Shown here piece by piece: positions 54,413 to 56,155 of a DNA stretch of 64,000 nucleotides (positions are counted from its first letter, which is position 1; every line of letters begins with the position of its first letter). The stretch spans positions 1,488,001-1,552,000 of the forward strand of contig NZ_CP047027.1 in NCBI RefSeq assembly GCF_009797025.1. Direction: 5' to 3'. Made by a program: the position numbers and the translations under genes. Origin of the DNA: Cellulophaga sp. L1A9. Its GTDB lineage: Bacteria > Bacteroidota > Bacteroidia > Flavobacteriales > Flavobacteriaceae. The notes under the pieces are model-generated. The model did no database searches, was not told where the DNA came from, and saw nothing but the letters and a program-made list of their open reading frames with translations.

Positions 54413-54560
54413 ACTTTATGTGTTGCCCTAAAGAATATAGTTTCCATAAGAGATTAATTTAAAGCAAACACTGTAAAAATAGTAAAAAACAAATATCACA
54501 GAACCAACTTTACATTTAGATAAACAAAATTTATTCCAAACTATTGCATTCCGAAAAAAA

Positions 54561-54669
54561 GAATAAAAAAAAGCCCAGTGTTTCCACTGGGCTTTCCCTA
54601 AATAACCAACCAAACTTTAAATTATGAAAAACCAATACTTAAAGTCAATAAGGGAACCACCCCTTATTT
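54561..54669 (-). ncRNA. Candidate structured small RNA downstream of hppD
   Basis: The 381-base gap 54413-54793 has no convincing gene but holds what looks like a small RNA unit. A TAACTTTG -7 box (54675-54682) would start a transcript near 54669. The transcript begins with a hairpin ATAAGGG-loop-CCCTTAT (54667-54648), then ACTTTAA (54645-54639) pairs with TTAAAGT (54620-54614), then comes a perfect 11-bp GAAA-loop hairpin (54595-54570) followed by eight T, an intrinsic terminator. Total about 108 nt. I cannot match it to a named family. It could also be a processed 3' end of the hppD message. The rest of the gap is featureless AT-rich sequence. Confidence 0.5.
54562..54596 (-). terminator. 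Intrinsic terminator of the candidate small RNA (or of hppD)
   Basis: AAAGCCCAGTG (54570-54580) and CACTGGGCTTT (54585-54595) are a perfect stem with, on the minus strand, a GAAA tetraloop and a following T run. It lies about 200 bases after the hppD stop codon. Confidence 0.9.
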
Positions 54670-54674
54670 GATGA

Positions 54675-54682
54675 CAAAGTTA
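54675..54682 (-). promoter_or_regulatory. -7 box of the candidate small RNA
   Basis: The minus strand reads TAACTTTG (TAnnTTTG), ending six bases before the first stem of the RNA. No -33 TTG at normal spacing. Confidence 0.4.
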
Positions 54683-54793
54683 AACCAAACCTTTTATTTT
54701 AAAATTAGTTTTAACGTACTTTAACTATAGTCTTAACAGTAATTTATAGAAGTTAGATAAAAATTAATAATTCATTAAGAAAATTGAGCATAT

Positions 54794-55957
54794 CTAGAGT
54801 GTTCCTCTAGCTTCTTGCTCCCTTTCTATAGCCTCAAATAAGGCTTTAAAGTTTCCTACTCCAAACGATTGCGCTCCTTTTCTTTGAATAATTTCAAAAA
54901 ACAGTGTGGGTCTATCTACAATTGTCTTGGTAAATAATTGTAAAAGATAACCTTCCTCATCTCTATCAATTAAAATTCCATGTTTTTTAAGCACCTCAAT
55001 ATCTTCGTCAATAGCTCCTACGCGCTCCAATAAATCATCATAGTATTCTTCAGGCACATATAAAAATTCTACGCCACGGTCTCTCATTGCAGATACCGTA
55101 GCTACAATATCATCTGTAGCTAATGCCAAGTGTTGCACTCCTGGCCCATTATAAAAATCTAGATACTCTTCTATTTGAGATTTCTTTTTCCCTTTTGCGG
55201 GCTCATTTACAGGAAACTTTACGCGACCATTGCCATTACTCATCACCTTACTCATCAATGCCGTATATTCTGTAGCAATATCATTGTCTACAAAAGAAAC
55301 AATTTGAGCAAAGCCCATTACTTCTCCGTAAAATTTACACCAGGTATTCATTTCATTCCAACCGACATTACCCACAATATGGTCTATAAATTTAATCCCT
55401 GTTGGTTCTGGGTTATAATGAGATTCCCATTTTCTAAATCCAGGCAAGAAAACACCCTTGTAGTTTTTGCGTTCTACAAACAAATGGACTGTTTCGCCAT
55501 ACGTGTAAACTCCAGAACGTATTACATGCCCATTTTCATCTTCTTCTTTAGTAGGCACTAAATAAGGTTTTGCTCCACGCTTTGTTGTTTCTTCAAAAGC
55601 TTTAGTCGCATCGTCTACCCACAAAGCAACAATTTTTACACCATCGCCATGTTCATTAATATGCCTATTAATCTCACCATCTTTTTGTAATGGCGTTGTT
55701 AATACCAAACGAATCTTATCTTGCTTTAAAACATAAGACACGCGATCTTTAATTCCTGTTTCTAAACCCGCATATGCTTCTGATTGAAAACCAAAAGCTG
55801 TTTTATAAAAATGCGCTGATTGCTTTGCATTACCTACGTAAAGTTCTACGTAATCCGTGCCTAATAACGGAAGAAAATCTTCTGCCTCTTTAAAAAGTTT
55901 TTTTAGAGAATATTCCGTGTTCTTTAAGTCTTTTAAATTTTTTATTTCTGCTGCCAT
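54794..55957 (-). CDS. hppD: 4-hydroxyphenylpyruvate dioxygenase
   Basis: Converts 4-hydroxyphenylpyruvate to homogentisate in tyrosine breakdown. From the ATG at 55957 the protein has 387 residues; the longer frame adds 14 residues with no family match. Two vicinal-oxygen-chelate halves are visible. The iron ligands are His193 (GIKFIDHIVGN), His276 (GPGVQHLALATDDI) and Glu355 (FFEIIQRKG). Product homogentisate would be handled by genes outside this window. No clear -7 box was found upstream. Confidence 0.95.
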   Translation of the reverse strand: MAAEIKNLKDLKNTEYSLKKLFKEAEDFLPLLGTDYVELYVGNAKQSAHFYKTAFGFQSEAYAGLETGIKDRVSYVLKQDKIRLVLTTPLQKDGEINRHINEHGDGVKIVALWVDDATKAFEETTKRGAKPYLVPTKEEDENGHVIRSGVYTYGETVHLFVERKNYKGVFLPGFRKWESHYNPEPTGIKFIDHIVGNVGWNEMNTWCKFYGEVMGFAQIVSFVDNDIATEYTALMSKVMSNGNGRVKFPVNEPAKGKKKSQIEEYLDFYNGPGVQHLALATDDIVATVSAMRDRGVEFLYVPEEYYDDLLERVGAIDEDIEVLKKHGILIDRDEEGYLLQLFTKTIVDRPTLFFEIIQRKGAQSFGVGNFKALFEAIEREQEARGTL

Positions 55958-56155
55958 GATATTTTTCTTGAAATGATTAATAAAAAGTAAGGTGTACACA
56001 AGTTTCCTCCTTAAGAATAAGAAAGAATTAAAATGGCATTACCACATGGCACGAAGGTGCGCCGTAATATCAACTCTGTATTGTAGCATTTTACAAATAT
56101 CGCAATTAAACTATAACTTTTATATTAAATTAACAACAAACCAATGGGTGCCGAA

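Follow-up and report, generated by a model that had tools for sequence, protein, structure and literature searches.

What does the gap between hppD (54794-55999) and the gene for a DUF3108 protein (PF11306; 53633..54412, minus strand) encode in the 64,000-nucleotide stretch of Cellulophaga sp. L1A9 DNA analyzed here (the window)? The preliminary description had placed there, on the minus strand, a promoter-like box followed after six bases by three hairpins, the last of them a terminator with eight T residues, and our coordinate check and fold prediction bear out this arrangement. The whole unit (54682-54565, minus strand) comprises a -7 box, a 5' hairpin, a 39-nt seed, and a terminator. The -7 promoter box TAACTTTG (54675..54682) is separated by the six bases TCATCA from the 5' hairpin (54647..54668), a perfect 8-bp stem AATAAGGG/CCCTTATT with the hexaloop GTGGTT (GUGGUU in the RNA). 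A second predicted hairpin, ACTTTAAGT/ATTTAAAGT (54614..54645), holds the anti-start-codon sequence UUUUUCAU in its loop region, and GGTTGGTTATTTAG lies between it and the intrinsic terminator (54565..54595), which has an 11-bp stem, a GAAA loop, and eight T residues and was also picked up by a simple terminator scan. All of these features are on the minus strand. The predicted RNA (54565..54670) would be about 105 nt long (approximately 102 to 108 nt, with the 5' end estimated at about 54670), as suggested by its fold and by the models R1 and R2 described below. The whole unit folds into three hairpins with a minimum free energy of -40.9 kcal/mol, compared with -22.4 ± 3.1 kcal/mol for shuffled sequences (n = 200; z of -5.98), and none of the 200 shuffles folded equally well. 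No family had been named for this unit, and none of the Rfam 15 families reached its gathering cut-off across the 64-kb window; the 16 matches with E values up to 10 in a focused scan of the locus (451 bases) were all far below cut-off. A peptide-coding unit was also considered and rejected. Among the listed open reading frames (ORFs) of at least 60 amino acids, the minus strand of the gap has one, of 61 amino acids, which starts with TTG at 54613 and crosses the terminator. Coding on either strand is disfavored because near relatives differ by single-base insertions and deletions inside the unit.

The promoter-like and terminator sequences are retained in relatives. Eighty named loci were chosen by a 34-mer match to the seed, and their flanks are conserved as well. 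In the 78 of these listed loci with enough sequence, the -7 box reads TAnnTTTG in 60 and TAnnTTTA in 18 (the 18 counted by eye), and the terminal T-run is kept in 76. The sigma-A -7 consensus in Flavobacterium psychrophilum is TAnnTTTG (PMC9723704). The RNA thus appears to be an independent transcription unit with its own promoter and terminator, which supports the earlier reading of a stand-alone regulatory RNA. Farther upstream, a conserved box, GTTAAGACTATAGTTAAAGTACGTTAAAA (54709..54737, minus strand), contains two GTTAAA hexamers whose first bases are 10 nt apart, together with a weaker GTTAA as the third repeat, giving GTTAA direct repeats 10 to 12 bases apart, and ends 26 nt before the -7 box. 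In the 78 named loci listed, conservation is 95% or higher in each of the twelve hexamer columns and lower in the spacer and third repeat. Since both hexamers are conserved across genera, an activator is suggested, and we regard the GTTAAA repeats as its candidate site.

The two stems upstream of the terminator, for which covariation had been proposed as a check, gave different results. In the 5' hairpin, the three outer pairs have both partners altered in 34, 14, and 5 of 86 sequences, while the nine pairs of the second hairpin show no both-side changes; this second stem is nearly invariant and is therefore unsupported by covariation. The covariation of divergent members was examined on a MAFFT alignment (A5, not structure-fitted), which replaced the model-fitted alignment A4 of 62 sequences and holds 48 of these. 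The 14 omitted sequences are four without the GUGGU loop (L256, L298, L319, and L321), L238, and nine that are near duplicates or additional copies. In the 48 sequences, 93.5% of the cells of the 5' hairpin are paired and all seven pairs show both-side changes. The covariation score of hairpin plus terminator was 0.604, compared with 0.230 in shuffled alignments, and 0 of 500 shuffles reached it. Changes in the terminator stem are compensated among relatives. A loop-anchored count over 50 distinct arm pairs, with L238 included, gave 83% paired positions versus 59 ± 1.8% in shuffles (0 of 1,000 as high); L238 has the loop CUGGUU, and its arms pair at 2 of 9 places in this fixed-loop count. The loop consensus is GUGGU(U/G), with GUGGUA in three sequences and CUGGUU in one, and the loop is absent from 4 of the 62 sequences. 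These covariation results establish the 5' hairpin as a real, well-supported RNA structure, whereas the second hairpin is a structure predicted by folding that is not apparent by eye in every divergent member.

The unit is widespread in Flavobacteriaceae, a large family whose members live mostly in the sea and in soil. By blastn it was found in all 18 genus genomes (our own included); outside the genus, G018, G028, and G035 (three further genera) match it over more than 100 bases. Searching for an exact 34-mer of the seed turned up at least 120 stretches in named genomes, and the 80 of these loci that were listed come from Maribacter, Arenibacter, Zobellia, Muricauda, Croceitalea, Robiginitalea, Eudoraea, and others. 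A covariance model built from the 86 sequences (R1) matched 231 of 397 sampled Flavobacteriaceae genomes and 153 of 237 genera at an E value of ≤0.01; many of these matches are weak, with E values above 1e-4, and chance would account for about four genomes. Each matching genome has one to four matches. Model R2 (E ≤ 0.001) further recognized 5 of the 20 R1-negative genomes listed (of 166), and in the class it matched 11 of 295 sampled genomes, namely six Flavobacteriaceae (our own included), four genomes of the family f55, and one of f29. Tandem copies occur, three at L268 and two each at L251, L255, and L116. In our own genome, R2 finds a single strong copy, plus eight matches that are weak (E of 0.009 to 0.64). 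One locus in this genome (L326; G000:C1:433736-433838, minus strand; R2 E of 0.056) has GGTTTTCATAATGGTTGGTTTAAGTTGGTTAGTT and a terminator shortly past a stop codon and is a possible second, 3'-UTR-derived relative.

The neighboring genes bear on whether the unit acts in cis. A script could orient 113 of 120 loci; a DUF3108 match was present at 95 of them, hppD at 56, both at 51, and neither at 13. Some oriented loci end early, and we therefore also counted by length: DUF3108 lies downstream in 86 of the 100 loci with at least 1,500 bases on that side, and hppD lies upstream in 54 of the 97 loci with at least 1,400 bases on the other. These counts link the RNA to DUF3108 rather than to hppD, whose position upstream is not constant. 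One could propose that the upstream structure regulates the terminator ahead of DUF3108, as in a cis-acting attenuator or leader; the frequent presence of this gene downstream (95/113) and its regular spacing, with 80 of the 95 genes 130 to 260 nt from the GGTTGGTTA part of the seed, would fit such a role. Against it, loci L240 and L248 have hppD upstream and no DUF3108 within about 3 kb, the RNA occurs in the tandem copies noted above, and eleven divergent loci (three of G063 and eight oriented loci of the sigma-54 type described below) have no match to any of six marker genes. In many loci, moreover, a promoter-like sequence follows the terminator (by eye), so that we judge an attenuator very improbable. 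The RNA might also be processed from the 3' UTR of the hppD mRNA, as the 56 loci with hppD upstream would allow, including the 54 of 97 with sufficient flank. However, 38 of the 113 oriented loci have a patatin-like gene immediately upstream and no hppD match, and the -7 box is conserved, which leaves this origin still less credible than an attenuator. The promoter-like sequence itself, TTTGGAAYAAATTTTGTT (54523-54548, minus strand), is conserved between the RNA terminator and DUF3108 at the same place in many relatives; it looks like the promoter of DUF3108, possibly of the -24/-12 (sigma-54) type.

A stand-alone RNA of this kind raises the matter of its partners, and a conserved candidate for contact with them is the 39-nt seed ATTGGTTTTTCATAATTTAAAGTTTGGTTGGTTATTTAG (54598..54636, minus strand). 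Read from 54636 to 54598, it looks antisense to a start codon (UUUUUCAU) and a leader (GGUUGGUUA), with CAT at 54626-54624 and GGTTGGTTA at 54611-54603. Its complement, CTAAATAACCAACCAAACTTTAAATTATGAAAAACCAAT, resembles a Bacteroidota start region, and many short secondary blastn matches of the unit land on gene starts. We calculated the duplex energy of the seed with the region from -40 to +20 of the genes for SusC/TonB receptors and of long ORFs. Receptors were identified by TIGR04056 (best 30 loci per search), and the background was 20 sampled 20-kb stretches per genome, plus the window for our own genome. For Kriegella aquimaris (G169), the best 30 of 56 SusC matches had a mean energy of -19.49 kcal/mol, compared with -14.10 kcal/mol for 289 ORFs (AUC of 0.873, p of 8.7e-12), and none of 40 dinucleotide-shuffled seeds gave as high a value. 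In our own genome, 27 receptors averaged -16.36 kcal/mol versus -13.60 kcal/mol for 315 ORFs (AUC of 0.688, p of 5.9e-4; 0 of 40 shuffled seeds). These receptors come from the loci of 30 of 57 matches, the other 27 matches having no locus, and leave out L038 and L041, which have no plausible in-frame start, and L048, which is the second part of the L047 gene. The background ORFs were not purged of receptors (one is the L054 gene), a bias that works against the difference. The signal was similar for the 14 receptors over the TIGR04056 cut-off (AUC of 0.699, p of 0.006) and the 13 below it (AUC of 0.677, p of 0.016). An earlier test in this genome, which used a 50-nt query and different rules for ORFs, had given a p value of 0.02 for all 27 receptors and one of 0.13 when limited to the 14 over the cut-off; the signal in our own genome is moderate. 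A third genome, G036, gave an AUC of 0.781 (p of 2.3e-7; 0 of 30 shuffled seeds). It had been picked as an RNA-free control but carries a sigma-54-type copy and therefore fails as a negative control.

The complementarity is centered on the start codon. The mean energy in Kriegella was -19.1 kcal/mol there, versus -10.2 to -13.2 kcal/mol at ten other offsets, and the minimum also lies at the start codon in our own genome. Both halves of the seed contribute in Kriegella, and each is weak singly in our own genome (p of 0.05 and 0.06). Neither the reversed seed nor the 5' hairpin discriminated SusC from other ORFs. The seed CAU was in register with AUG in 23/30, 21/27, and 25/30 SusC regions, compared with 142/289, 142/315, and 136/258 background regions. 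Within AUGAAA starts this difference in register is small (18/19 versus 63/75, 13/14 versus 66/90, and 18/19 versus 57/77), and the energy signal of SusC persists (AUC of 0.82, 0.70, and 0.85). Genes with hydrophobic N termini were not enriched (AUC of 0.51 to 0.54), and SusC was separated from them with an AUC of 0.69 to 0.88. Just 13/30, 7/27, and 12/30 SusC regions reached the best 5% of the background, and SusC leaders are not independent data points because they share ancestry. Start-codon-centered complementarity to SusC-type mRNAs exceeds that to other genes, and the seed thus appears to match a coherent set of mRNAs encoded elsewhere, moderately so in our own genome. A single dominant target with a long near-perfect complement was also considered; a 27-mer search of our own genome with up to 3 mismatches found none, and this candidate was rejected.

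The conserved segment might instead bind a protein (an RRM protein, for instance) or other mRNAs, with the SusC match as a by-product of a generic anti-start sequence. GUGGUU and GGUUGGUU could be protein sites, and several non-SusC starts match well, among them those of genes named by eye as ccoP-like, in five genus genomes, and porin-like, in three. Parts of the seed gave weak positional peaks over all genes, with a slight optimum at the start codon for pairing of gene starts overall with the 5' half (z of -1.4 and -2.1), and the SusC leader type extends past the lineage of the RNA. A leader-plus-start pattern occurs at 26 places in 25 of 299 genomes, versus 3 for the reversed pattern. Fifteen of these places are ORFs of at least 90 amino acids and of differing kinds, which would fit a broader set of partners; 14 of the 15 have hydrophobic N termini, compared with 24 of 35 controls, a difference that is not significant (p of 0.058). 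The other 11 are short ORFs. Eight short-ORF loci scanned with R2 gave matches with E values of 5.6e-7 to 0.03 (L256 is a ninth source), so that some of them are likely further copies of the RNA. Such a by-product does not readily account for the finding that SusC exceeds other genes within AUGAAA starts and in comparison with hydrophobic N termini, or for the loss of the signal with shuffled and reversed seeds, and we consider it unlikely, though clearly less so than the two cis-acting or processing schemes above. In the ccoP-like genes (cbb3 oxidase subunit, by eye; L027, L030, L080, L083, and L084), the start region complements the seed over 28 to 33 bases.

We therefore favor, as the probable function, a stand-alone, trans-acting antisense small RNA that represses SusC-type transporters. 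In the proposed mechanism, which is built from conserved sequence, sigma-A polymerase, probably aided by an activator at the GTTAAA repeats, would make the RNA of about 105 nt up to its own terminator. The 5' hairpin with its GUGGUU loop probably shields the 5' end or binds a protein. In the predicted fold, part of the seed (UUUUUCAU) would lie in a loop and part (GGUUGGUUAUUUAG) would be single-stranded; AAUUUAAAGU has a mean unpaired probability of 0.11, and the second hairpin would mask part of the seed. Judging from the statistical complementarity, the seed would base-pair across the start codon and leader of mRNAs for SusC/RagA-type outer-membrane transporters. Such pairing would block initiation and lower transporter synthesis. 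Since the seed is complementary to SusC start sites, the RNA probably turns down their translation.

Some copies may be under different control. Among 44 divergent copies, 11 have a -24/-12 (sigma-54) box, TGGCA-N-TTG, compared with 25 of 4,000 random windows; of the others, 28 carry just a sigma-A-type box and 5 carry neither type, and a loose sigma-A pattern is matched by 3 of the 11 as well. The sigma-54 box was present in all six copies from R1-negative genomes (one of them, L498, at an E value of 0.0012). In F. psychrophilum, the listed sigma-54 promoters precede the genes for GroESL, DnaK, Lon, ClpB, HtpG, and Skp, the RNA Rfp36, and others (PMC9723704), and the sigma-54 regulon in Flavobacterium holds chaperones and envelope-stress genes. 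The copies with a sigma-54 box might be tied to envelope stress and so connect the RNA to it.

Several known RNAs resemble parts of this system. FopS and GibS of Bacteroides thetaiotaomicron are small RNAs whose seed pairs with the start region of SusC-type mRNA and blocks translation, which for FopS has been proven experimentally (PMC11697453). FopS genes lie mostly between other genes, with promoters of the sigma-A type and intrinsic terminators, one of the 14 RNAs being derived from a 3' UTR (PMC11697453). The likeness lies in a small RNA with a sigma-A-type promoter, a terminator, and a seed to the SusC start region, which here is complementarity only. In contrast, FopS is about 65 to 70 nt long with 14 copies and is reported from Bacteroidaceae (PMC11697453), whereas the RNA here is about 105 nt with one strong copy in its own genome and belongs to Flavobacteriaceae. 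FopS also consists of a single-stranded 5' seed followed by the terminator (PMC11697453); the window RNA does not have this architecture, since a covarying 5' GUGGUU hairpin precedes its seed, and 4 of 62 members lack the GUGGU loop. The 16 Rfam matches at the locus (E up to 10) include no FopS row, and that copy of Rfam may lack a FopS model. They do include a same-strand match to the RteR small RNA (RF04181), which was rejected because its score of 25.5 bits (gathering score, 72) and E value of 0.09 in the 451-base scan are at chance level. Among the Rfp RNAs of F. psychrophilum, several are conserved between species; Rfp36 lies downstream of a sigma-54-type promoter and its set includes chaperone and envelope genes, and Rfp18 is reported to affect metalloprotease mRNAs, with predicted pairing via its third stem-loop (PMC9723704). 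Compared by description alone, Rfp18, Rfp11, and Rfp36 resemble the present RNA as flavobacterial small RNAs, one of them sigma-54-linked (PMC9723704). Searches of the open-access literature found no paper whose title or abstract describes the RNA family reported here, part of which may already be among the Rfp RNAs.

SusC-type transporters are the main glycan-uptake gates in these polysaccharide-degrading bacteria. In the literature searched, FopS of gut Bacteroides is the single small-RNA family found to control them. If the proposed function is true, it would place a post-transcriptional switch on glycan uptake across an environmentally important family, with 153 of 237 sampled genera matched. 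In enterobacteria, the sigma-E-dependent RNAs RybB and MicA shut off outer-membrane protein synthesis, and sigma-54-driven copies here would be an analogue that differs in phylum, promoter class, sequence, and targets. We offer tentatively, at somewhat less than even odds, the broader view that Bacteroidota share a class of SusC-leader-antisense RNAs, comprising the Flavobacteriaceae family, elements of f55, and FopS, in which the branch driven by sigma-54 would play, in this phylum, the part of the envelope-stress RNAs that shut off outer-membrane protein synthesis in enterobacteria.

The f55 elements (L338, L340, L341, and L342) are SusC-leader-antisense-like sequences with terminators in another Bacteroidia family and are perhaps independent inventions. 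Two of the four, L340 and L341, combine the terminator with the different anti-start sequence TCTTCTCAT or nearly so (TCTTTTCAT in L341). In the f55 genome G604, the AUC for SusC was 0.779 with the seed of L340, which is from a different f55 genome, 0.724 with its own element L338, and 0.731 with the Flavobacteriaceae seed. Because this last seed separates SusC in an f55 genome, the SusC leader type is wider than the range of the RNA. In Kriegella, the f55 seed gave an AUC of 0.658, compared with 0.873 for the native seed. Co-adaptation of seed and leader would fit these data in part, in a comparison of one genome on each side and with f55 R2 scores of 41 to 44 bits. In one f55 genome, 9 of 30 SusC genes start with ATGAGA, compared with 0 of 30 in Kriegella.
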